Of a DNA stretch of 64,000 nt, positions 13,535 to 35,837 are shown one piece after another. The position numbers were made by a program, and so were the translations under genes. This DNA is from Synechococcus sp. JA-2-3B'a(2-13) (GTDB taxonomy: Bacteria > Cyanobacteriota > Cyanobacteriia > Thermostichales > Thermostichaceae). Each line of letters begins with the position of its first letter. Position 1 is the stretch's first letter. Where the stretch lies: assembly GCF_000013225.1 (NCBI RefSeq), contig NC_007776.1, positions 1,321,277-1,385,276 on the forward strand, given 5' to 3'. A model generated the notes under the pieces. That model had not been told where the DNA came from. It saw nothing but the letters and a program-made list of their open reading frames with translations, and did no database searches.

Positions 13535-14872
13535 TCACCAACTGCCGCCCGCTCCGCCACCTCCGCTGCTGCCGCCACCGAAGTCTGAATCTCCACCGAA
13601 GTCTGAATCTGTGTCTGTGTCGCTGAGCTCGGGGATGACCACCTCTCGCTCGCTGCGGTACCCGCAGATAGGACAGCTCAGGATTTCCAGCTTCAAGCCG
13701 CTAGAGGAATAGGTGGCTTCCCTGAGAACCTGTGTGGTGAGGTCGAGGGTGAGGGCTTGGCACCGAGGGCAGTAAAGGTGTCGGGAGAGCGTGCCTTCGC
13801 GCACAACCACAGCTATTCCTTGACAGGTAGGACAAAACCAGCCGTAGTAGCGAGCTCTGCCGCGGCTCCTGGCCAGGCGATGCTCTTGGGGAAGGTACTT
13901 ATCCAGAAGCTGGGGCTGGATTGGGCGCATGGGTCGACCACAGGCTTGACAGACCACTGGCTGAAAAGGGATCCCACGCTTCCGGCCCAAGGTGCCGTCA
14001 GTGGCCATAGCAGCCACAACCGGCAGAGCGAACCCCAGCCAGTTGCCGCTGGACAATCCTAGGAACACGCCAAGGCAGAGGGATCCCGAATAGAGGAAGA
14101 GACGAATGGGGTCGCTCTGAACCGAAGAGAGCACAGCACCTGTTCTTGGATCTCTGCGTGTCAGGGAGAGGACTTGTCTTCCCCCTCGCTCAGCCCTTAG
14201 AGAGACGGGCATGCGAGAGCGCTGCCACCCCAGTCCCAAAATGATGATCCCCAGCAGCAGCAGGATCCCTTCCACCAGGGAAGAATCAATGCCCTGGGCC
14301 ACTGCCCCAGAAGAAGTTGCAATCGTTGAGGTGGTAACTCCAGAAGCTGCCGCAGGAACATTGGCAACGGGCTGGCCCTGCAACACCGAGGTCAACTGCC
14401 GCACCCCCGCCAGAGTGCCGCCATCGAAATCCCCATTGCGAAACCGAGGCAGGATCTGCTGGTCGATAATCTGCTGGACTCGGCTGTCGGGGAGGATAGC
14501 GACCAGGCCCCTGCCCGTTTCGATTTCCACCCGCCGATCCCCTACCGAGATGAGAAACAAAACCCCGTTGTTTTGGCCTGCCTTGCCGATCCCCCAGTAG
14601 TTAAATAGCTGCGTGGTGAAGTCTTTTGGTGTTGCATATCCCTGAGTATTCGGCACGGTAACCACTGCCATCTCGGCACTGGTGCGCTGCTCAAGCTGAG
14701 TGATAAGACGGTTGAGCTCGTTTTCGGTGCTGCTGCTGAGGATGTTGGCGGTATCGGAAACCCACCCTCCATACTGACGGCGGGGGTTGGGCACTTGTTC
14801 AAGGGTAATGGCCCAAGCGGGCTGCGGCAGCAGGAATACAACTAGCAAAACTGCCGCCCAAACTTTCGGCAT
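13535..14872 (-). CDS. TPM-domain protein with Cys-rich zinc-ribbon-like region and Gly-rich tail
   Basis: 445 residues. Signal peptide (VWAAVLLVVFLLPQPAWA), then a TPM domain at about 30-165 (GWVSDTANILSS, LEQRTSAEMAVVTV, FNYWGIGKAGQNNGVLFLIS, RRVEIETGRGL), the fold of Psb32/YgcG implicated in photosystem II repair or membrane maintenance. One or two membrane helices follow (about 205-300). Next come four CxxC pairs (CQACGRPM, CPTCQGI, CPRCQAL, CPICGYR), which suggest a pair of zinc ribbons. The tail alternates D/S/F/G and ends GGSSGGGGAGGSW, as in YgcG proteins. Function not defined further. Confidence 0.85.
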   Translation of the reverse strand: MPKVWAAVLLVVFLLPQPAWAITLEQVPNPRRQYGGWVSDTANILSSSTENELNRLITQLEQRTSAEMAVVTVPNTQGYATPKDFTTQLFNYWGIGKAGQNNGVLFLISVGDRRVEIETGRGLVAILPDSRVQQIIDQQILPRFRNGDFDGGTLAGVRQLTSVLQGQPVANVPAAASGVTTSTIATSSGAVAQGIDSSLVEGILLLLGIIILGLGWQRSRMPVSLRAERGGRQVLSLTRRDPRTGAVLSSVQSDPIRLFLYSGSLCLGVFLGLSSGNWLGFALPVVAAMATDGTLGRKRGIPFQPVVCQACGRPMRPIQPQLLDKYLPQEHRLARSRGRARYYGWFCPTCQGIAVVVREGTLSRHLYCPRCQALTLDLTTQVLREATYSSSGLKLEILSCPICGYRSEREVVIPELSDTDTDSDFGGDSDFGGGSSGGGGAGGSW

Positions 14873-15766: not shown

Positions 15767-16210
15767 TTAAACTTTGGGGAACTCCGCCTGGAGGGGCTCA
15801 TCATATTCATCGGCCAAGCTGGCCACAATGGTGATGGCCCGGGAAATTTCGCCCGCTGTGATCCCTTCCAAGGTGCGGTAGTGGTTCAGCACCACCTGGT
15901 TGTTCCAGATGCAAAAGCGCGCCTCTAGGGTGTCGCTCCAATTCTTCTCCAGGAGCTTCTGCATCAGCTTGGCCGGTTCTGCCACCGGCAGAGAGAGAAC
16001 GGGAGACCATACCAAAAGAGTGTCTTCTGGGGATTCGCCGCTCAGATGGACGAACACTTCTGCCGTGCCGTAGGTGAATTTCCAGGTGTGACCTTGCTCG
16101 TGGTTCTCGTAGGCGGCATCCTCCTTGAGGCTGGAAACCACCGCCGAGACAACCTCAACGTAGCGAACGGACTCTGGAAAAACCTCTGGCGAAGGGTTAA
16201 AGGTGCTCAT
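15767..16210 (-). CDS. YbjN-domain protein
   Basis: 147 residues; WKFTYGTAEVFVHLSGES, LLVWSPVLSLPV, MQKLLEKNWSDTLEARFCI and AGEISRAITIVASLADEYDE follow the YbjN fold, related to type III secretion chaperones, of unclear role in cyanobacteria. I start at MSTFNPSPEV; an ATG seven codons upstream (16231) is possible. Lies just upstream of the lipoate-ligase-like gene. Confidence 0.83.
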   Translation of the reverse strand: MSTFNPSPEVFPESVRYVEVVSAVVSSLKEDAAYENHEQGHTWKFTYGTAEVFVHLSGESPEDTLLVWSPVLSLPVAEPAKLMQKLLEKNWSDTLEARFCIWNNQVVLNHYRTLEGITAGEISRAITIVASLADEYDEPLQAEFPKV

Positions 16211-16452
16211 GAGCGGCTCACTGTAGACCATGGTCTTCCCCCTATTCCCTATCCAACCACCTCAACTATACCGCTATACCGCCTAAGACTCCGACCTATC
16301 CGGTCATCGCTTTGGGATCCTCAACTCAGGCGAGAATGAAACCGTTGGCAATGGTTCACTAAGTGGCCGGACAGGTGAGGGCAAGCGATCCCCCCCGCCA
16401 ACTGGAGAGAGAGCCTGTTCAAAAGTCTTTCGAAGAACCTGAGGGAAGCTCT

Positions 16453-17278: not shown

Positions 17279-18256
17279 TCAGTTGTTCATCTCCCGCTCC
17301 AGCTTGGCCATCGAGATCTGGCTTTCCAGGCGGGAAATGCCTTCGCGAAGGGTTGCCACCTGTGCTTCAACTTCATCCAAAGATTTGCGAACCGCTTCTG
17401 CTGCGCTCATGTGCTGGTTGCGCCGAACCAAAGCCTCGCGGGCAAGGTCATCCTGGTTCTGTTGGCTGGCTTTCTCAGCCCTGACAAACCAATCTTCGGC
17501 CTTTTGCAAAATTTCGTCGTACCGCCGTTCCAGTTGCTTGCGACTGGCCAGGGTTGTGGTCAGGCTGCGCTGCAATTGTTTCAGATCCCGCTCCATCTGC
17601 CGGATGCTCACCCTCTGTCGGCTGGGCTTTCTCCACAGCACCTTGCTCAGACCCACCATCACCACCGCAGTAGCAATCCCCACACCCGCAGCTGCCGCCG
17701 GATTTTCACGAATCAAAGAACCATCCAAAACATTGACCCCCGCAAAGGCCGAGGTTTGCGTGGCCGTCTCCCGAAACTCCCAAGGCATCACCGGATTGCG
17801 TTGCTGCCAGAAGCCTAACCGCGCCGCTTGGGCCGCCTCTTGAGCTTCTAGGTAGCGTTGCCGATTGGCCCCGTGCAAAAAGCGCTCGTAAACCACCGCC
17901 TGACCCTGGCGCAACATCTCCAAATTCACCAAACCATCGGCGTTGTACACCTGGGCAATGTGAAGCCCTTCCGGTGTGACATAGAGGGTATCCACCTGCA
18001 CCAGGGATCCCGTCGGGAGCAAGTTTTGCAGAGCCTCTTGGGATAGCCGCCCCCAGCGCCCTTGGGTCAGCTCCGGCGCATCCACATAGGCCAGACGGAA
18101 ACGGGTTGGCCTGCCGTTCAAGTCCGCCCAGAAGGTATCCCCATCCACCACCGACCGCACCCGGGCCGTCCCGGAAGATTGTGCTGCCGCCGGAAGAACA
18201 AGCCAACTGCCCGAAAGGACAGCCACAGTCATCAGAAGGGAAGTTCTTGAGGTCAT
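17279..18256 (-). CDS. Secreted SNase-like domain fused to membrane helix and PspA/IM30-like coiled coil
   Basis: 325 residues in three parts. (1) Signal peptide to about 26, then an SNase domain (32-150): VVDGDTF, FRLAYVDAPE with Arg54, Asp59 and Glu62 equivalent to SNase Arg35, Asp40, Glu43. The position of SNase Arg87 (Y-G-R-G-L) is Leu98 (E-G-L-H-I), so catalysis is probably lost or altered. (2) A helix, AAAAGVGIATAVVMVGL, about 187-203. (3) A coiled coil (215-325) whose DLAREALVRRNQHMSAAEA and QVATLREGISRLESQISMAK match the signature part of PspA/Vipp1 (LAREALVRK, LESKI). AGGAGT upstream of the ATG at 18256 fixes the start. Role unknown; a membrane-stress or envelope function is a guess. 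Confidence 0.85.
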   Translation of the reverse strand: MTSRTSLLMTVAVLSGSWLVLPAAAQSSGTARVRSVVDGDTFWADLNGRPTRFRLAYVDAPELTQGRWGRLSQEALQNLLPTGSLVQVDTLYVTPEGLHIAQVYNADGLVNLEMLRQGQAVVYERFLHGANRQRYLEAQEAAQAARLGFWQQRNPVMPWEFRETATQTSAFAGVNVLDGSLIRENPAAAAGVGIATAVVMVGLSKVLWRKPSRQRVSIRQMERDLKQLQRSLTTTLASRKQLERRYDEILQKAEDWFVRAEKASQQNQDDLAREALVRRNQHMSAAEAVRKSLDEVEAQVATLREGISRLESQISMAKLEREMNN

Positions 18257-18560
18257 GGGGGTCACTCCTATTGTGCAGAACAAGAACAAAAGTTAAGAAA
18301 TAATAAGATAGGGAAGTTTCGGGAACCAACCGGAATCCCAGAGCGTCCTTGGGGATTGCCGTGAGGCTGGCTGCTGCTCTTCCCTGGCAAAGGCAACAGA
18401 GCCAGCTGCTCCCTACGTCGGAAAAGCGAACCTCTCCCACGAAAAGCTGCGGCTCTCGAAGAGTCGGCTCGTGGGGTCGGCTTAATTTGGGTTAGAGTTT
18501 AGCTCACCTTTTGGGGCAACGTCACAGCCATAAGGCGCAATCTTTGTCCCCCGGATCAAA
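18257..18560. other. Intergenic region with a strong hairpin
   Basis: 304 bp. Contains the nested hairpin at 18436-18475 and otherwise no recognised feature; presumably the promoter of the SNase-fusion gene. Confidence 0.5.
18436..18475 (-). terminator. Nested hairpin, possible terminator or leader RNA structure
   Basis: CCCACGA (18436-18442) pairs with TCGTGGG (18469-18475); inside, AGC/GCT and CTCT-CGA-AGAG also pair. It lies between the TPR-like gene and the SNase-fusion gene, both on the minus strand. No T-tract follows on either strand. Confidence 0.4.
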
Positions 18561-19379
18561 TCACAGGCGCAAGCGATAGGGTTCCTCGTCGGGGAAGTCG
18601 GGCAGAGGAGGGGGCAGGATCTCGATCTCCCCCGTAGGCAGCGTTTGCAGCACGGTACCCAACTGGACCAGTTGTTCCAGGACGTACAGGCGGGTATCCC
18701 GGTCGGTGGTGGAGTTAAACACGCTCAGCCAAACATCGAATTGGGAACGGCGGCTGAGAGGACTGCGGGCGATGTTATCCCCCAACTGGCGAAATTCATC
18801 TCCAGGCAGGCCCACCTGCTCTCGCCAGGCAGCAGCTTGGTAGTAATCGGTGCGGCCCGCTTCCGCGTCCCCCAGAAACATAAAGTTAAGTAGAGCACGA
18901 TCCACGTAGAGTCGCCAGGCGTCAGGGTTGTTTTGGGGGTTGAACTGCTGCAAGCCGCGATCCAAAATCTCGACGGCTTTTTCCGGCTGGCCGGCCCGAT
19001 AGGCCAACACCAAACTAGAGAGCCGGTAGCCCAAGAGGAAATGGGGATCCAGCCGCAGCATGTGATCGAAGTAGTCGTAGGCCAGGCCATAGCCAGTCAG
19101 GGTGCGAGCCGGTGCATCCCCGTAGTACTGGATCAGCTCCAGCCACAGCCAGGAAGCCCCCAAGTTGCGGTAGCCCAGCCACCCCAGCGTATTGGCCAGG
19201 GCAATGTTGCGGTTTTTGCGGGCCTCGGCATTTTCCAATTCTCCCAGATTGATCCGCTCCAGCATCGGCAATTGCAGCCGCACCACCAGGATCCCAAACA
19301 GAAACGCTCCCCCAACGGCGGCCAGAGTGCCTGCCAGGGAGAAGCGAGAGCGGCGACGGGGCAGGGAAGCAGCAGTCAT
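18561..19379 (-). CDS. Membrane-anchored TPR-like protein, function unknown
   Basis: 272 residues from MTAASLPRRRS. A basic N-terminus is followed by one membrane helix (AAVGGAFLFGILVVRLQL, about 18-35) and a helical-repeat region with TPR-like spacing (NTLGWLGYRNLGASWLWLE, GYGLAYDYFDHMLRLDPHF, LVLAYRAGQPEKAVEILDRG). The proline-rich C-terminus (ILPPPLPDFPDEEP) is low complexity. I do not recognise a named family. The frame is open upstream to 19430. Divergent from the methyltransferase gene. Confidence 0.75.
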   Translation of the reverse strand: MTAASLPRRRSRFSLAGTLAAVGGAFLFGILVVRLQLPMLERINLGELENAEARKNRNIALANTLGWLGYRNLGASWLWLELIQYYGDAPARTLTGYGLAYDYFDHMLRLDPHFLLGYRLSSLVLAYRAGQPEKAVEILDRGLQQFNPQNNPDAWRLYVDRALLNFMFLGDAEAGRTDYYQAAAWREQVGLPGDEFRQLGDNIARSPLSRRSQFDVWLSVFNSTTDRDTRLYVLEQLVQLGTVLQTLPTGEIEILPPPLPDFPDEEPYRLRL

Positions 19380-19464
19380 GGCAAGTTCTTCGCGGATCCC
19401 TGAGGCTGTCGCGACCAGGGCTACACTCAATCATAAATTGAACCGTTGAGCCTTTCCCCTGCCT

Positions 19465-20727
19465 ATGGCCAGCTCTGCCCTCTCCGCTTCGGAACGAGCC
19501 TTGAGCCTTTACGAGGCTCTGCCCTACCCTAATGTGCCCCTCTCGCAGACGGCCCGCAACGCCCTGCCGGAGATGTTCAAGATGAGCTATACCACGGCTC
19601 AGTACCTGCGCACCCATACCATCGTCCCGCCAGAGGGCAAGGTGTTGTTGAATGCCGGCTGTGGCTCCGGCTGGGAAACGTTGATGATGGCCGAGGCCAA
19701 TCCAGGGGCCCAGATTGTTGCCTGTGATCTGTCTCCGGCTTCGGTCAAGCTTACCGAGGAACGCCTGCGCCACCACGGCTTCGCAGATGCCGAGTTTTAT
19801 GTCCTCAATCTGCTGGAGCTGGAGCGTCTGGGGATCCAGTTTGATTTCATTAGCCTCAATGATGTTTTGTATTTGCTGGAGGATCCCACCGAGGGCCTGC
19901 GGGCCATGAAAAATGTCCTCAAGCCCGATGGCATCATCCGGGCCAATCTCCACAGCCGCTACCAACGGCAGGTGTTTTTCCGCCTGCAAGAGGGGTTGCA
20001 AAAGGTGGGGCAATTTGACGTTCCGCCAGCAGTAGGGGCCAAGAATGTGCGGGAGTTCATGGGATCCCTGCGAGAAGAAGTGGCCCAGGCGGTGCTCTGG
20101 AACCCGGCCAACTATGCCGAAGATGCGGCCATTATGAATAATTACCTACTCTCCAACGACAAAGGGTTCACGATCCCCGACCTGTTTCGCATGTTGCAGC
20201 AGGCGGGGTTGAGCTTTTTGAGCTTGGTGGATAGGCCCGACTGGTCGGTGGAGTCTTTGTTTAAAGAGGTGCCTGAGTTTGTGCGGCAGCGGTTGGCAAC
20301 CCTCAGCATCATGGAGCGGCTGCATCTGTATGAACTCCTTCGCCCTGTCCATCGCCTCATCGACTTTTGGGCGGAGCATGCCGGCTCTTCGCCGGTGCTG
20401 CCTTGGAGTGACGAAGATTGGCTGTCGGGATCCGTACAATTCAATCCCCTGTTGATGGACAACCCCCGCTTTCGCCAGGAGTACAGCAAAGCCCTGCAAG
20501 AGAAGCGGCCCTACGAAATGCAGTGGACAGGGGCCACCCACGGGCGGATCAGCATCCCTGCCGAGAACGTGAGCTGGTTGGCGCCACTGCTTCAAGGACC
20601 AACGCCGGTTCGAGAGCTGATTCAACAGGCCGTCCAGTTGGGATCCCCAGATGAAGAACGAACAACCGCTGAGGTGCTGACCTTCCTAACCAACCTAGAA
20701 GACTTTCTTTTTTTGATGCTGCAATAG
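19465..20727 (+). CDS. Class I SAM-dependent methyltransferase
   Basis: 420 residues. SAM-binding motif I LLNAGCGSGWETLMMAE (about 60-75), motif II IVACDLSPASVKLTEERL, and FDFISLNDVLYLLEDPTEGL with LKPDGIIRANLHSRYQ form a Rossmann methyltransferase over residues 50-200. The remaining half, including EFVRQRLATLSIMERLHLYE and a C-terminal segment near HGRISIPAENVSWL, has no family I can name. Substrate unknown. It ends six bases before a 281 bp inverted repeat. Confidence 0.85.
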   Translation: MASSALSASERALSLYEALPYPNVPLSQTARNALPEMFKMSYTTAQYLRTHTIVPPEGKVLLNAGCGSGWETLMMAEANPGAQIVACDLSPASVKLTEERLRHHGFADAEFYVLNLLELERLGIQFDFISLNDVLYLLEDPTEGLRAMKNVLKPDGIIRANLHSRYQRQVFFRLQEGLQKVGQFDVPPAVGAKNVREFMGSLREEVAQAVLWNPANYAEDAAIMNNYLLSNDKGFTIPDLFRMLQQAGLSFLSLVDRPDWSVESLFKEVPEFVRQRLATLSIMERLHLYELLRPVHRLIDFWAEHAGSSPVLPWSDEDWLSGSVQFNPLLMDNPRFRQEYSKALQEKRPYEMQWTGATHGRISIPAENVSWLAPLLQGPTPVRELIQQAVQLGSPDEERTTAEVLTFLTNLEDFLFLMLQ

Positions 20728-28210: not shown

Positions 28211-30946
28211 CTAGGAGGCCAACAGCAACACAGGTAGCTTTTGAATAGCAGGCCGTAATCCCTTGGGAAAGCGCTCCCGCTTCAAGAGATAGCGATAGTT
28301 GAGTTGGGGAATAAGTCTCTCCCATTGATAGGGGTTCAAGCCAGCTACCACTGAACAGAACGGCTCTCTACTGAGCTCTAACCCCTCTTCCATGAGCCTG
28401 AGAGCTATGTTGCCTGCAGCTATCTCCAGAGTTTGATTGGCCAGTTGCGGATCCGGATCCCCTAGGAAGATCAGAGCATAGTCTTCTGGCTGAGGACTGC
28501 GCAGAATTGGCTCCAGCAAGCCCTCCAGTTCTTGGATAAGCTGCTCTGTCTCCATTTCCCAGTAGGGGAAAAGGCCCACGTTGATCTTGCTCAGGCGGAT
28601 CCCTTGTGGTTTGGAGGTTTCTGTTAGGCTATCTCTCATCACTACCAGGTTTTCTGAAGGACTCAGCCAAACTCCTGAGTAATCGACACTATGGAGCTGA
28701 AAAAAGGCTCTGATTTCCTGCTCGAAGTCATGAACAGCTTTGCAACATCCTTGCCAGTCGTGGTAGTCATCAACTTGGATAAACCCCCTGGGGTTAACTT
28801 GATGGTAGAGATGACGGAAAATATCCATCGTCGACTGATACCAGTCTGCATCTGCATGCAGCAAGGCAATCTCGCTCACCTGCTCTCGATAAACAGGCAA
28901 GGTGTCAGCAAAAAGCCCTGGCACAGGAACAATGAGATCCCAGACCCCTAGTTCCCTGGCAATCACCTCTAAGTTCTCCGAAATGGGTGCCGCTAAAGCA
29001 CCGGATCCACAACCCGTATCGTTGGCAGCAACTCCTCGATAATCTCGATCCACCTCTGTTGGATCAGGCATACCTGAGAAGGTATCGAAAGCATATAGCT
29101 TGCGAGGTCGACGGCTGTAGTTCTTAATCACCCAGGCCAGCAAAGCTGAGCTTCCACCCCTGCAAACACCACATTCTACAAAGTTCCCAGGAATGTCTTC
29201 TTCACAAACCTGCTTAGCCAGTGAATAAAGGCTCCAAAGACGCTCAAAGCCCAGCAAGGTAAAAAATTTAACTTTCTCTAGCACCCTAGACAACTCAAGG
29301 TTACAGACCGGATAGTCCTTGAGGTGCTCTGGCAATGTCCAATTCACAGCAGGGTCTGGAATATGCTCAACGGGCTTGACATTGCCTCGCCAGGCCACTC
29401 CCATAATTTGCATGGTCTGGTAAATCATCGTGTTCCAGCCCCTGTCTCTCAAGTAATTCAAACCTTCAGCCACATCCGGCGAGGCTAGATTATGAAACAG
29501 AATCAAGGCATCCTCAGCAGCATAGCGCTCTGCCACTTGAGCATCCTGCAAGGGGGCTGGTGAGTCATGATTCCCATCGATGAAAATCAGAGACCAGCGA
29601 CAATCCTCTTGCTGGGCAATCTCCTCCACCTTCCCTGGGCTGTAGCCAGGGTAGAGATTGACATTAGAGCGAACTCCAGCCGAGCGAAGAGATTGATCCA
29701 CACTTCCATAAATCTGGGGATCGGCCAGAGCAGGATCTACCACATCGAGAATAACTCCTCCTGCCGCCAGGTGCGCAGTTGACCAACCTAACCAACACCC
29801 AATCTCCAAAGCGTTTTTTCCTTGTAGCTTAAGGGCAGTGTTATAAAGAATGTGGGCTTCATCTCGACTGACAAAGCCAATACCAGGCTTGCGTTGATCT
29901 GCGTACCAAAGATGTGGAACTTCTTTCCGTAGATAAGGCCAGGGGTGAGAGCTTGGCTCGGCCGCAATCATTAAAGGAAAGCTATGGTCAAGATGTATTC
30001 TTCTGAGGCTAGCCGCTACGTAGTCGTACCTCCTAGCTGGGTTAGCTACTGGGCCTGGATACCGAAGGCTGACTTCAACCTTAAAGCCCTCAGTTGTAAG
30101 TGCAATGTGAGTTGGTGCTAGCTTAGCATCACCTGCAAGATGCATGATCCCTATTGGATTGTGGGGTGGAAAACAATCTACCCAGAGCTTCCTTTGTGGA
30201 TCCCATAGAGGCAGTTTTTGGTGGCAAGCCCAATGACAGTGTGAAGGCAGTAGTTCAACAATATCTATTCCACAATCCCTATAGATCGTCGCATTTAGAG
30301 CGTGCTGCTCTCCGTAGTAAGGCTTATCAAGGCCTCTAAAAACGCGAGATAGATTTGAAATACATTGACCTAGTCTATACTTCCATCTTGACCAAACGAA
30401 AGAGTCACTGCGTCCAGAGATTGCACCGGTGTTTAGGACTGGCATCAGGTGCAGGTTGCTATGCTCTGGAGTGCAGTCCGTGAGATGGAAGTAGTCCCAG
30501 TATTTTGCAAAAAGAAAACTTACGTGAAGAGAAACCGAAGGAGTAAAGAGAGTATTTAACGGCTCAATAGCGATTGCAAAGCCTTTGTGCCTAGCTCCTA
30601 GGATAAAAAGCTCGATTGCAGACCAATCTTGTACCCAGGTATCTGCATCAAGCCAGATGTAAACTTCATAGCCTGGAAAGTAATCAGCAATGAAAGGTCT
30701 ACACAACTGCGCCTTAAGATAGCCGGGCTGCCTATCAATATCAGGAATGTCATAAGTCCACCCTGGCTCAACGATATAATCAACATGCTGACTTATCCAC
30801 TTTAGCTGCTCGGGTGTACAACCCACATCGAGAAACGCAATATCTACAGAGCTTCCCTGCGGCTTCTCTCGTATAGAGAGAATAGTCCCCTGAACTAACT
30901 CAAAAAACTTGCTGTCAGCACCTGTAACGATGATAGTTGAGTTCAT
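28211..30946 (-). CDS. Giant fusion: glycosyltransferase + class I methyltransferase + TylF-like methyltransferase
   Basis: 911 residues from MNSTIIVTGADSKFFE (AGGAG upstream). Part 1 (about 1-300) is a GT-A-like transferase with a DAD metal motif in YIWLDADTWVQDW (100-102) and a late H-x-A-GD segment. Part 2 (about 365-540) is a Methyltransf_24-like domain: ALEIGCWLGWSTAHLAAGG, SLIFIDGNHDSPAPL. Part 3 (about 585-760) is TylF/MycF-like: FVECGVCRGGSSALLAWV, AFDTFSGMPDPTEVDRDY, LLHADADWYQSTMDIFRHL, GFIQVDDYHDW (metal-binding acidic residues present). Part 4 (about 785-911) is unassigned. Last gene of a four-gene minus-strand run; 65% or so of it is nearly identical to the next gene upstream. 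Probably modifies a surface glycan. Confidence 0.85.
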   Translation of the reverse strand: MNSTIIVTGADSKFFELVQGTILSIREKPQGSSVDIAFLDVGCTPEQLKWISQHVDYIVEPGWTYDIPDIDRQPGYLKAQLCRPFIADYFPGYEVYIWLDADTWVQDWSAIELFILGARHKGFAIAIEPLNTLFTPSVSLHVSFLFAKYWDYFHLTDCTPEHSNLHLMPVLNTGAISGRSDSFVWSRWKYRLGQCISNLSRVFRGLDKPYYGEQHALNATIYRDCGIDIVELLPSHCHWACHQKLPLWDPQRKLWVDCFPPHNPIGIMHLAGDAKLAPTHIALTTEGFKVEVSLRYPGPVANPARRYDYVAASLRRIHLDHSFPLMIAAEPSSHPWPYLRKEVPHLWYADQRKPGIGFVSRDEAHILYNTALKLQGKNALEIGCWLGWSTAHLAAGGVILDVVDPALADPQIYGSVDQSLRSAGVRSNVNLYPGYSPGKVEEIAQQEDCRWSLIFIDGNHDSPAPLQDAQVAERYAAEDALILFHNLASPDVAEGLNYLRDRGWNTMIYQTMQIMGVAWRGNVKPVEHIPDPAVNWTLPEHLKDYPVCNLELSRVLEKVKFFTLLGFERLWSLYSLAKQVCEEDIPGNFVECGVCRGGSSALLAWVIKNYSRRPRKLYAFDTFSGMPDPTEVDRDYRGVAANDTGCGSGALAAPISENLEVIARELGVWDLIVPVPGLFADTLPVYREQVSEIALLHADADWYQSTMDIFRHLYHQVNPRGFIQVDDYHDWQGCCKAVHDFEQEIRAFFQLHSVDYSGVWLSPSENLVVMRDSLTETSKPQGIRLSKINVGLFPYWEMETEQLIQELEGLLEPILRSPQPEDYALIFLGDPDPQLANQTLEIAAGNIALRLMEEGLELSREPFCSVVAGLNPYQWERLIPQLNYRYLLKRERFPKGLRPAIQKLPVLLLAS
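28751..29790 (-). repeat. Gene-conversion tract, 1040 bp, paralogue A
   Basis: Aligns without gaps to 31601-32640 (constant offset 2850). I find about six or seven mismatches in 1040 bp, while both flanks diverge abruptly. It covers the first methyltransferase and most of the TylF domain. Confidence 0.88.
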
Positions 30947-31027
30947 AGCTCCTAATTTTCCTCCAACAACAATCTTAGCCATCAGGAAGAAAAAACAAGG
31001 GCATGCCCCCAGGCAGAAAGTAGGTGC

Positions 31028-33781
31028 CTATAACACAGGCAACCTCTGGACAGCCAGCCGCAGGCCTTGAGGAAAGCGCTCGTGCTTCAGAGGATAGCGA
31101 TAGTTCAGTTGGGGAATCAGCCTCTCCCATTGATGGGGGTTCAACCCAGCCACTACAGAAGAGAATGGCTCTCTGCCTAGCTCCAGCCCTACTTCCATGA
31201 GCTTGAGGACTACGTTGCCCGCAGCTATCTCCAGGGTTCGATTAGCCACTTGCGGATCCGGGTCTCCCAGGAAGATCAGGGCATAGTCTTCTGGGTTGGG
31301 GCTACGTAGAATTGACTCCAACAGAACCTCCAACTCTTGCACAAGCTGCTCTGTCTCCATCTCCCAGTAGGGGAAAAGACCCACGTTAATCTTGCTTAGA
31401 CGGATCCCTTCTGGTTTGAAGGTTTGTATCGAACCATCTGTAATTACCAGCCAGTTCTCAGAGGGACTTAGCCATACAGCACTAGGCCAACCCTGCACCT
31501 CTGCGCTATCTGGCTTCCAGCCATATGGCTCAGCTACACTGTGTAGCCGGAAGAAGACTCCAAGTTCCTGCTCGAAGTCATGAACAGCCTTTGCACATTC
31601 TTGCCAGTCGTGGTAGTCATCAACTTGGATAAACCCCCTGGGGTTAACTTGATGGTAGAGATGACGGAAAATATCCATCGTCGACTGATACCAGTCTGCA
31701 TCTGCATGCAGCAAGGCAATCTCGCTCACCTGCTCTCGATAAACAGGCAAGGTGTCAGCAAAAAGCCCTGGCACAGGAACAATGAGATCCCAGACCCCTA
31801 GTTCCCTGGCAATCACCTCTAAGTTCTCCGAAATGGGTGCCGCTAAAGCACCGGATCCACAACCCGTATCGTTGGCAGCAACTCCTCGATAATCTCGATC
31901 CACCTCTGTTGGATCAGGCATACCTGAGAAGGTATCGAAAGCATATAGCTTGCGAGGTCGACGGCTGTAGTTCTTGATCACCCAGGCCAGCAAAGCCGAG
32001 CTTCCACCCCTGCAAACACCACATTCTACAAAGTTCCCAGGAATGTCTTCTTCACAAACCTGCTTAGCCAGTGAATAAAGGCTCCAAAGACGCTCAAAGC
32101 CCAGCAAGGTAAAAGATTTAACTTTCTCTAGCACCCTAGACAACTCAAGGTTACAGACCGGATAGTCCTTGAGGTGCTCTGGCAATGTCCAATTCACAGC
32201 AGGGTCTGGAATATGCTCAACGGGCTTGACATTGCCTCGCCAGGCCACTCCCATAATTTGCATGGTCTGGTAAATCATCGTGTTCCAGCCCCTGTCTCTC
32301 AAGTAATTCAAACCTTCAGCCACATCCGGCGAGGCTAGATCATGAAACAGAATCAAGGCATCCTCAGCAGCATAGCGCTCTGCCACTTGAGCATCCTGCA
32401 AGGGGGCTGGTGAGTCATGATTCCCATCGATGAAAATCAGAGACCAGCGACGATCCTCTTGCTGGGCAATCTCCTCCACCTTCCCTGGGCTGTAGCCAGG
32501 GTAGAGATTGACATTAGAGCGAACTCCAGCCGAGCGAAGAGATTGATCCGCACTTCCATAAATCTGGGGATCGGCCAGAGCAGGATCTACCACATCGAGA
32601 ATAACTCCTCCTGCCGCCAGGTGCGCAGTTGACCAACCTAGCCAACAGCCGATCTCTAGGGCGTTTTTTCCTTGTAGCTTAAGGGCAGTATTGTACAGAA
32701 TATGAGCCTCGTCTCGACTAACAAAGCCGATAGTAGGTTGACGCAAATCCGCAGTCCAAAGGTGAGGAACTTCTTTCCGTAGATAAGGCCAGGGCTGAGG
32801 CCCTGGATCGATAGCAGTCATTAGAGGGAAGCTGTAGTCGAGATATATTTTCTTTTGATTAGCTGATACATAGTCATACCTTCTGATTGGAGAAGAATGG
32901 CTTCTAGGATACCAAAGACTGGCTTCAACTTTGAAGCCATCGGTAGTATGAGCTACATGAGTTTTTCTATCCTTAGCTTTATAGGTAATGTGTAGAATCC
33001 CTAAAGGGATGTAAGGCTTCCAAGGCTCAACCCAGAGCTTTCTTTTTGGATCCCATAGAGGTAGTTTACTATGAACTGTCCAGTTACAAAACAATGGTAA
33101 AATTTGAACGTTATCTATCCCTAAGTCATTATGAATAGCCACGTTTAGAGAATACTGATCTGGAGGTGAGAGTAGATCGAGGCTCATAGAGATAGCTTGG
33201 CTCAGTCTGTTTTTCCATGCTACCCAGTGAATACCGGAATTACTTCCAGAGAATACACCAGCATTTAGAATTGGTCTTATGTATAGGTGGTTATATACAT
33301 GTCCAAAGTCATATACATGTCCAAAGCACCTGATGTATCCCGAGAGGTGAAAAGCTTGATGCGAAAATGGATAGGGATCGAAGAGAGTATTTAGCAACTC
33401 AGGAACAACTGCAAGGTTTTTGTATCTTGCTCCCAGGGTAAGAAGCTCAATTGCAGACCAGTCTTGCACCCAAGCATCTGCATCAATCCAAATATAAACT
33501 TCATAGCCTGGAAAGTATTCAGGAAGGAAAGGCCTACAAACTAGTGCCTTGAGATACTTGGGTTGTCTATCAATGTCGGGAATATCATAGTCCCAATCTG
33601 GCTCAACAATGTGGTCAACGTACTGACCTATCCATTGCAACTGCTCCGGTGTACAGCCTACATCCAAGAATCCAATATCTACAGAGTGCCCCTGAGGTTT
33701 TTCTCGGATGGAGAGAATGGTCCCCTGAACCAATTCAAAAAACTTGCTGTCAGCAGCCGTAACGATAATGGTTGAGTTCAT
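31028..33781 (-). CDS. Giant fusion paralogue: glycosyltransferase + two methyltransferase domains
   Basis: 917 residues, same architecture as the gene at 28211: DxD motif in YIWIDADAWVQDW, ALEIGCWLGW in the first methyltransferase, FVECGVCRGG and HADADWYQST in the TylF-like domain, and a C-terminal domain beginning near LSKINVGLFPYWEMETEQL. The central 1.04 kb is more than 99% identical to its paralogue at the DNA level while the glycosyltransferase part and the TylF tail are clearly diverged (for example the insertion AEPYGWKPDSAEVQGWP here). Starts four bases after the stop of the preceding gene with GGAGGAG upstream, so translation is probably coupled. Confidence 0.85.
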   Translation of the reverse strand: MNSTIIVTAADSKFFELVQGTILSIREKPQGHSVDIGFLDVGCTPEQLQWIGQYVDHIVEPDWDYDIPDIDRQPKYLKALVCRPFLPEYFPGYEVYIWIDADAWVQDWSAIELLTLGARYKNLAVVPELLNTLFDPYPFSHQAFHLSGYIRCFGHVYDFGHVYNHLYIRPILNAGVFSGSNSGIHWVAWKNRLSQAISMSLDLLSPPDQYSLNVAIHNDLGIDNVQILPLFCNWTVHSKLPLWDPKRKLWVEPWKPYIPLGILHITYKAKDRKTHVAHTTDGFKVEASLWYPRSHSSPIRRYDYVSANQKKIYLDYSFPLMTAIDPGPQPWPYLRKEVPHLWTADLRQPTIGFVSRDEAHILYNTALKLQGKNALEIGCWLGWSTAHLAAGGVILDVVDPALADPQIYGSADQSLRSAGVRSNVNLYPGYSPGKVEEIAQQEDRRWSLIFIDGNHDSPAPLQDAQVAERYAAEDALILFHDLASPDVAEGLNYLRDRGWNTMIYQTMQIMGVAWRGNVKPVEHIPDPAVNWTLPEHLKDYPVCNLELSRVLEKVKSFTLLGFERLWSLYSLAKQVCEEDIPGNFVECGVCRGGSSALLAWVIKNYSRRPRKLYAFDTFSGMPDPTEVDRDYRGVAANDTGCGSGALAAPISENLEVIARELGVWDLIVPVPGLFADTLPVYREQVSEIALLHADADWYQSTMDIFRHLYHQVNPRGFIQVDDYHDWQECAKAVHDFEQELGVFFRLHSVAEPYGWKPDSAEVQGWPSAVWLSPSENWLVITDGSIQTFKPEGIRLSKINVGLFPYWEMETEQLVQELEVLLESILRSPNPEDYALIFLGDPDPQVANRTLEIAAGNVVLKLMEVGLELGREPFSSVVAGLNPHQWERLIPQLNYRYPLKHERFPQGLRLAVQRLPVL
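31601..32640 (-). repeat. Gene-conversion tract, 1040 bp, paralogue B
   Basis: Partner of 28751-29790. Divergence resumes at both edges, at CATTC|TTGCCAG on one side and CAACCTA|GCCAACAG on the other. Confidence 0.88.
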
Positions 33782-33785
33782 AACC

Positions 33786-35837
33786 TTAAGTCTCTCCTCC
33801 AAGGCTTGAATTGTTGTCGACAAAGCAAGCCCTGCTTAGATAGCAAAGGACTCCTCTTTGGCCTGCTACAATTTCTCCCTGCCAGAGGAGATGGGTAGGG
33901 TCCAACATCTGGTCAATCTGCTTGCGGTCTTGCTCAGAAGTAAACTCCACGTAAATCACCTTGATGTCTTTGAGCTGCTCTTGCAGGCTGGTCAACACCT
34001 CCACCTCCTCTCCACCTGTAGCCACCCTGAGCACATCGATGGGCTCCAAACCCAACTCCTTGAGGGCTGCCCTGGCTTCCCGGAAAGGGAGCACCTGCTC
34101 CACTCCCCACTCGGCCTGAGGATCCTCCGGCCAGAGCCGACAAGTTCTGCAACTATCCTGCCCCGCCAGCCCCACTGGATGCACAAAGCAGTTGCCCAGG
34201 CCAAGAGCATTCTGCTGCAGCAGGTGCAAGGCCAAGGGATCCACCTCAAAACAATGAATGGCCGCCTCAGGGCAGAAACCCCGAAAACAAACGCTACCAA
34301 GGCCTACCCCAGCTCCGATGTCGATAACCGTCTGCACCTGGCTAGACAGAAACACAGGAAAGTTAAGATACGTCCTCTCGTAAAAAACGGTGTCTGGGTA
34401 GAGCTTTACCGAAAACCTGAGTTTGCCAAAGTCAAAGCCAGTCAACACTGCTTCCATTAACTTACTGGCATTGGCCAAAAGAAGTTGGTGGTCCTCTGCC
34501 AAGACAAAAGCAAAGTTAGCCCTCACAGACCGCCCCAGCCGCTGCAAGTCCTCAGCTGTGCACACCACAGCATCAAAGCTGGGCCAACTGGCTGGCTCTC
34601 CTCTCACCTCGTGAATTCGCTCGGGCACTCCCTTCTGCTGCAGCAGGGCACAGGGATCCCCAAACCCCTCTTCCACGTACAGCTCCAGCCGCGGCAAGTC
34701 CAGCAAGTCCGCGGCTATCACCCCAGGACAGCCTCGGCCAACAAATACCCTCAGTCGCTCCTGCACGCGATGCAGCTCTTGAATGGGCTCGTAGATTCCT
34801 AGTCGTGTGTCTATCCAGGCAGAGCTGGCCGTGCTGACAAAGTAGCGCACATCAGAGCGGGGCGAGTAACGAAAGGGCTCCGGCAGCTCTCCCCCAAACA
34901 CCCAGTCCAGCAGGTTCTGAATGCGGTGGCGGGGATGCCACTTTTCATCAAAGGTGTGGTAAGCGCGGCGGGCAATTTGAATGGCTTCTTGGGGATGGTC
35001 TAGGTAGTAGCGAACTTTTTCCAGGAGTTCGGCTTCGGAGTTGTAGGTGTCGCAGTAGGTGCCGGGCGCCAAAAGTTCGTCCAATCCTGAGGCGAAGGAG
35101 AGCTGGTCAGTGAGCAGAAAGCCCCCTGCAGAAATCACTTCCAAGTTCCTTAAGTTCAGATCCCCATTTTGGCTGCAGTTGAAAGAGATTAACGAGCCAC
35201 CAAATATTAGTTGAGGATTGTGGACTCGAGTCTTTATAAGTAGAGGTAGACCCAGTTTTTTCAAGGACATGATCAACTTAAGACGTCTGTAATGATAAGA
35301 GTTAAAATTAAGGTTACCCACAAACGCAACTCTAATTTCTTTCTTTTCTATCCAACTGGAGCTGGTGAGACAAGCGGAAATGAAAGGCAGCCAAGCTAGC
35401 CTTTGAACTCCTGCTGCTGCGAACCAGTGGAGGTGCTGTCGGTCATAGGCGGTGGCAATATAATCAAAGGCTTCAGTGGCCCAGTAAGTTAGAAGGTGGG
35501 TGATAGGGAGCACATGATGATGCGTATCTCCGGCTAGCAAGACAGTTGGGCAGCCAAATTTTTTCGTGTTGAAAGGACTAGTCAGATCAACACTCGATGT
35601 CCAGACAATCACCAAGTCAAATTCTTTGTCTTCGACTTGATCTGAATACTGGACAAATTCATAGAGGTCAAAGTCTTTGTCAGGACACTCAACTAAGCTT
35701 TTTGGAACACTAAAAAAATCGAATATCTGTCTTCTAACCTTTCCTTTCGGACATAGAGTTACTTGACGCTCTGAAAGAGTGAGAGGTGGGACATAATCAG
35801 GTGGAGTCATCCAAACTAGTAGAACTCGAGGATTCAT
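33786..35837 (-). CDS. CgeB-like glycosyltransferase fused to FkbM-like methyltransferase, second copy
   Basis: 683 residues, same two-domain plan as the gene at 24589. N-terminal part: LVIVWTSSVDLTSPFNTKKF, GCPTVLLAGDTHHHVLPI, VISAGGFLLTDQLSFASGLD. C-terminal part: VIDIGAGVGLGSVCFRGFCP (about residue 505), IHCFEVDPLALHLLQQNAL, IDVLRVATGGEEVEVLTSL and VIYVEFTSEQDRKQID. The methyltransferase reads RVATGGEE where FkbM members usually have KIDVEG, so the catalytic or substrate loop is altered. AGGAAG upstream of the ATG. First intact gene of the run leading into the two giant fusions. Confidence 0.83.
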   Translation of the reverse strand: MNPRVLLVWMTPPDYVPPLTLSERQVTLCPKGKVRRQIFDFFSVPKSLVECPDKDFDLYEFVQYSDQVEDKEFDLVIVWTSSVDLTSPFNTKKFGCPTVLLAGDTHHHVLPITHLLTYWATEAFDYIATAYDRQHLHWFAAAGVQRLAWLPFISACLTSSSWIEKKEIRVAFVGNLNFNSYHYRRLKLIMSLKKLGLPLLIKTRVHNPQLIFGGSLISFNCSQNGDLNLRNLEVISAGGFLLTDQLSFASGLDELLAPGTYCDTYNSEAELLEKVRYYLDHPQEAIQIARRAYHTFDEKWHPRHRIQNLLDWVFGGELPEPFRYSPRSDVRYFVSTASSAWIDTRLGIYEPIQELHRVQERLRVFVGRGCPGVIAADLLDLPRLELYVEEGFGDPCALLQQKGVPERIHEVRGEPASWPSFDAVVCTAEDLQRLGRSVRANFAFVLAEDHQLLLANASKLMEAVLTGFDFGKLRFSVKLYPDTVFYERTYLNFPVFLSSQVQTVIDIGAGVGLGSVCFRGFCPEAAIHCFEVDPLALHLLQQNALGLGNCFVHPVGLAGQDSCRTCRLWPEDPQAEWGVEQVLPFREARAALKELGLEPIDVLRVATGGEEVEVLTSLQEQLKDIKVIYVEFTSEQDRKQIDQMLDPTHLLWQGEIVAGQRGVLCYLSRACFVDNNSSLGGET

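Follow-up and report, generated by a model that had tools for sequence, protein, structure and literature searches.

An exported SNase fold joined by a membrane helix to a Vipp1/PspA-type hairpin in one cyanobacterial family

Results

The locus and the layout of the encoded protein

The window, i.e. the whole 64,000-nucleotide stretch of DNA analysed, comes from the 3,046,682-bp genome of a hot-spring cyanobacterium and carries on its minus strand a gene of 325 codons plus stop (325 aa), with an ATG start at 18256 preceded by a ribosome-binding-like AGGAG. An earlier note on this DNA had described a fused SNase-like, helix and coiled-coil protein here; its coordinates (17279-18256) are correct and the strand is minus. 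From N- to C-terminus the product, called type A fusion below, consists of a signal peptide, an SNase fold, one membrane helix and a PspA/IM30 hairpin (Table 1), an architecture that is near certain. Hydropathy analysis identified a signal segment (residues 7-25) and a single membrane segment (189-207), the latter matching the helix previously placed between SNase domain and coiled coil, with a net charge of +5 over the 12 residues directly after it. The membrane helix was found in every fusion and Ala25-Gln26 is invariant in all complete ones (10/10). By the positive-inside rule, the hairpin is predicted to be cytoplasmic and the SNase fold periplasmic or lumenal.

Table 1 Features of the type A fusion gene and its upstream neighbours (positions in the window).
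Feature	Position	Strand	Evidence
Whole gene, type A fusion	17279..18256	-	Translation; both Pfam domains above cut-off; AGGAG at 18265-18269
Signal peptide, residues 1-26 (..LPAAAQ)	18179..18256	-	Hydrophobic segment 7-25; cleavage inferred
SNase-like domain, residues 27-162	17771..18178	-	Pfam, alignment to solved structures, AF2, Foldseek
Loop TPEGL (94-98) in place of DRYGR; Leu98 at Arg87 position	17963..17977	-	Alignment
Linker, residues 163-186	17699..17770	-	pLDDT <50; conservation below that of flanks
Membrane helix, residues 187-208, opposite Vipp1 alpha0 (2-23) in gapless register	17633..17698	-	Hydropathy, register
Vipp1/PspA alpha1-alpha3 hairpin, residues 217-323	17288..17608	-	Pfam, Vipp1 alignment, AF2, shuffles
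Hairpin tip, residues 246-288 (W256, R259, A260, A263, LAREAL)	17393..17521	-	Best-kept part, types A and B together
TPR-like gene upstream of type A gene	18561..19430	-	Adjoins type A gene throughout genus
Methyltransferase gene beyond TPR-like gene, divergent	19465-20727	+	Stays with TPR-like gene across genus

A conserved operon was rejected, since within the genus the type A gene keeps only the TPR-like gene and the methyltransferase gene beyond it. Type B genes (paralogues, see below) have no common neighbourhood, and no conserved operon joining the fusion gene to vipp1 was found. Downstream, the window encodes a TPM-domain protein (13535-14872, minus strand) and a YbjN/CesT-like protein (15767-16231, minus strand); TPM and CesT types are among the reported neighbours of PspA (PMC11237479). 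These two genes were rejected as Psp partners because no genome other than G000 and the closely related G004 showed them near the fusion gene. PADLOC matches were essentially confined to the SNase part, arguing against a role in a defence system, and viral contigs gave no relative that would point to phage origin. Elsewhere in the window (28211-33835, minus strand) are two similar tandem proteins of ~935 aa with TylF and Methyltransf_24 methyltransferase domains.

The SNase fold is kept and its pocket is altered

Residues 52-152 match Pfam SNase (PF00565; E 5.4e-12; 46.6 bits, curated cut-off 21), AF2 folds residues 31-150 as a block with pLDDT 82-97, and SNase structures come first in Foldseek (3bdc, E 1.4e-10, TM-score 0.83 by target length). 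Together with the signal segment, this bears out the exported SNase fold recognised in the earlier note. Pocket residues (Asp21, Arg35, Asp40, Glu43 and Arg87 counterparts) are named in SNase numbering. On alignment to solved SNase structures, the counterparts of Asp19/Asp21/Arg35/Asp40/Glu43 are Asp38/Asp40/Arg54/Asp59/Glu62; those of Asp21, Arg35, Asp40 and Glu43 show no variation within type A, and the presence of the last three agrees with what had been claimed. In the phmmer alignment to these structures G86-R87 lies opposite G97-L98 and Lys84/Tyr85 opposite Pro95/Glu96, so that Leu98 does occupy the Arg87 position, as previously read; this column holds Arg in 22/22 SNase-only relatives and Leu in 5/5 complete type A fusions. 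Beyond Arg87 alone, the entire DRYGR loop usual in the 22 SNase-only relatives is replaced in type A by TPEGL (TPDGL in one). Arg67 and His99, both peculiar to type A, are basic residues near the Arg87 position and candidates for a substitute. A Cys pair that most SNase-only relatives have (20/22 and 21/22) is absent from all fusions, which have Tyr57, Asp89 and a GLVN motif in common.

Type B shows the opposite pattern, with the Arg35, Asp40 and Glu43 counterparts lost and that of Arg87 kept, while the SNase fold is retained in both types. The nuclease pocket has therefore decayed twice, by different routes and, because type B has lost it, ligand binding in the pocket is not the common function of the fusion family. 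Within type A, the pN/pS values of SNase domain, membrane helix and hairpin are 0.064, 0.08 and 0.155, respectively; the SNase domain is thus the most constrained part of the protein and under strong purifying selection, i.e. the outer domain is not decaying. Judged from its pocket residues, it probably does not cleave nucleic acid and would be a pseudo-nuclease; the ligand of the type A domain may be Ca2+ or an anionic molecule of the envelope.

Only one further SNase-family protein was found in the genome (L098:564-1163, minus strand; near G000:C1:124069). It, too, lacks pocket residues, namely the counterparts of Asp40 and Glu43, and Gly-Leu stands where Arg87 would be. The genome of the type A protein may be without any canonical SNase.

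The C-terminal part is a Vipp1/PspA alpha1-alpha3 hairpin

Pfam PspA_IM30 (PF04012) matches residues 218-322 (E 1.8e-16; profile positions 32-136 of 220) and is matched by all fusion members (10/10). In the comparison with generic coiled coils, on which the earlier note had staked its PspA/IM30 assignment beforehand, PspA_IM30 reached 60.9 bits (curated cut-off 33.9), against 17.8 bits for the best other coiled-coil family, ATG17_like. A model made from other Vipp1-type hairpins only gave 86 bits for this hairpin and 52-86 bits across fusion members, against a maximum of about 25.7 bits for 1000 shuffles preserving the hydrophobic pattern. The hairpin aligns without gaps to Vipp1 31-138 and its closest relative is Vipp1 from the same family (42%). 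A generic coiled coil at the C-terminus, merely resembling PspA/IM30, would accord with the weak cross-family matches common among coiled coils and with scores below the NCBIfam PspA equivalog cut-offs, which the protein did not reach; given the two Pfam scores, the shuffle maximum, the matches in every member and the gapless alignment, this explanation is very improbable and, as far as homology is concerned, refuted.

The match stops at Vipp1 138, so alpha4, alpha5 and alpha6 are absent, the protein ending ~2 residues later. The N-terminal amphipathic alpha0 is also missing and the membrane helix occupies its place, the ungapped register extended upstream (Table 1) being a positional, not a sequence, match. 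Of the proposal of a PspA-like module on a membrane anchor, the PspA/IM30 homology is real, and the module is reduced to the alpha1-alpha3 hairpin. AF2 predicts two long helices (218-265 and 269-324, pLDDT about 90), and the model of a type B paralogue shows the same two parts. Vipp1-conserved columns are kept at 9/14 positions of the tip in type A and 10/14 in type B, against 14/35 and 4/35, respectively, in the hairpin bases; with tip boundaries chosen afterwards, Fisher p is 8e-5 for type B and 0.20 for type A.

Distribution and history of the fusion

All eight genomes examined from the family (8/8; Thermostichaceae, as inferred) carry a fusion, the G004 copy being split exactly at two contig ends. 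It was not found in the single genome examined from another family of the order, and no full-length fusion was seen outside the family in two cyanobacterial genome samples (386 and 390 genomes, overlapping), in which up to five candidates per genome were scored and a full-length fusion was expected to be among these. When 84,980 species genomes were scanned with type A peptides, a search that reaches close relatives only, the matches were confined to relatives within the genus and SNase-only proteins. Type A is genus-wide, with an additional contig-end fragment without the SNase part in G007; type B paralogues are present in G003, G005, G006 (twice) and G007. The presence of a fusion in all eight family genomes and the hairpin score relative to the shuffle maximum (86 vs ~25 bits) exclude chance. 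As four more genomes of the genus encode full-length orthologues, and given the paralogues and the purifying selection, a chance open frame or assembly artefact was rejected.

In separate, unrooted trees with long branches, which place G006:C257 differently, a supported split separates the fusions from SNase-only proteins (about 100/97) and from Vipp1 (about 100/98). Taken with the features common to all fusions, one fusion followed by duplication would be the simplest reading. Full-length Vipp1 is encoded in every genome of the family and a further divergent PspA in most. This further PspA_IM30 protein, which the genome of the type A protein also encodes (L099:129-989, plus strand; G000:C1:141256-141825), may correspond to the 'Thermostichales group II' PspA of PMC11304991.

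Discussion

Possible role as a transmembrane tether

The reading that we prefer, to which we give somewhat less than an even chance, is a type I single-pass tether or adaptor that anchors Vipp1/PspA assemblies, with a pseudo-nuclease outside. The membrane helix would replace alpha0 and fix the Vipp1 hairpin at the cytoplasmic face, the tip being kept as a docking site for alpha5 of a full-length Vipp1/PspA subunit. In Vipp1 itself, the hairpin tip of subunit j+3 is the docking site for alpha5 from subunit j, and protein without alpha5/6 forms neither rings nor filaments (PMC8281802). As it has no alpha5, the fusion should not form an ESCRT-III-like filament by itself; its hairpin could engage Vipp1/PspA or lipid, with no polymerisation alone, and the protein would most likely anchor, nucleate or cap Vipp1/PspA assemblies at the membrane. 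Partners exist, given full-length Vipp1 in every genome of the family and a further PspA in most, and a tether is favoured because such partners are present and the tip is kept in both types. The Vipp1 contact is proposed from sequence; tip conservation may merely mirror hairpin geometry and is not significant for type A alone (p 0.20). The type A SNase domain retains the Ca2+-site residues without the nucleotide clamp Lys84-Tyr85-Arg87, and in type B, with the Ca2+ site gone, the fold alone remains, presumably for protein contacts. More tentatively, the fusion could be a family-specific transmembrane ESCRT-III-type subunit coupling an outer pseudo-nuclease receptor domain to an inner Vipp1/PspA assembly, in a deep-branching lineage of cyanobacteria with thylakoids.

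Two other explanations were weighed against this tether. The hairpin might act on lipids rather than on Vipp1, the protein being a membrane-fixed surface stabiliser whose hairpin rests on anionic lipids at the cytoplasmic side, with the SNase fold put to a separate use. On its own, the alpha1-3 hairpin of IM30 is enough to bind anionic (PG) membranes in vitro and to reach the membrane in vivo (PMC12636044), which supports such a role, as does the slightly positive net charge of type A hairpins (+1 to +2), similar to that of same-family Vipp1 (+2 to +3). However, type B hairpins, with net charges from neutral to negative (0, +1 and -5), nonetheless keep the tip, and weak lipid affinity adds little to a protein that already has a membrane helix. 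We consider a lipid-directed hairpin less likely than the tether. Less probable again is a still-active, anchored exported nuclease, e.g. for DNA scavenging, in which another residue stands in for Arg87 and the hairpin oligomerises or anchors. Such activity would fit the invariant Asp21, Arg35, Asp40 and Glu43 counterparts of type A in its most constrained domain, and some ribonuclease activity does persist in the degenerate SN domains of TSN (PMC5900569). The phosphate is polarised by Arg35 and Arg87, though, the latter also being the proposed proton donor (PMC8436206), and another residue could in principle take over these roles of Arg87. Also weighing against an active enzyme are the Arg at this position in every SNase-only relative, the loss from type A of the DRYGR loop, and with it of the counterparts of Lys84 and Tyr85, and type B paralogues entirely without the Ca2+ site. 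The tether to Vipp1/PspA assemblies remains our preferred, if tentative, account.

Significance

Vipp1 and PspA are peripheral proteins, and use of PspB, PspC or PspF is not known from cyanobacteria. With its Vipp1 hairpin, this natural single-pass protein is a direct candidate for anchoring Vipp1/PspA or for passing an envelope signal to them, and the combination of domains suggests that the cell envelope is connected to membrane-repair machinery. It also provides a clear case of a nuclease fold whose active site was lost by two routes after it was joined to a membrane protein. The earlier note knew of no described protein of this kind and, consistent with this, full-text searches on both domain names found no published SNase/PspA_IM30 fusion (subscription papers, preprints and supplementary tables being outside their scope); no single Pfam or NCBIfam model spans both domains. 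A previous analysis of Thermostichales Vipp1/PspA kept proteins of >200 aa with a bit score >250, a filter that the partial PspA domain of the fusion would probably fail, and this order has been put forward as the earliest lineage known to bear thylakoids (PMC11304991). Confined, among the genomes covered here, to one Thermostichales family, this extra Vipp1-derived protein bears on the diversification of thylakoid maintenance.

Comparison with known systems

With Vipp1/IM30 and PspA (PF04012, ESCRT-III superfamily) the fusion shares the alpha1-alpha3 hairpin, including the conserved Trp71 and the LAREAL tip, but it has a true membrane helix in place of alpha0, no alpha4-alpha6, and an added outer SNase domain with signal peptide. 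Exported cyanobacterial SNase proteins (PF00565), to which the type A SNase domain is up to 46% identical, have the same fold and a signal peptide and, in the case of type A, the same Ca2+-site residues and Arg35; the fusion differs in the absence of the Cys pair and, in type A, of the DRYGR loop and Arg87, and in the addition of membrane helix and hairpin. The degenerate SN domains of Tudor-SN/SND1 are likewise SNase folds that have lost catalytic residues and been reused otherwise (PMC5900569), although that protein is eukaryotic, soluble and RNA-binding, with tandem SN domains and neither membrane helix nor hairpin. Surveyed PspA fusions (NlpC/P60, PspAA, PspC, tandem PspA) also join PspA_IM30 to another domain, which in PMC11237479 and PMC9239133 is never SNase. 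Finally, cyanobacterial PspA proteins of 385 aa (L037:1392-2546 and L038:1338-2495, both plus strand; also G328:C115 and G200:C63) have an alpha0-like start, four glycine/alanine-rich hydrophobic segments and a near-complete PspA domain (profile positions 14-217). In these the PspA domain likewise follows membrane-type hydrophobic segments but, unlike in the fusion, it is nearly whole, the glycine-rich segments are several and there is no SNase domain; they are a second, different route for placing PspA on the membrane.
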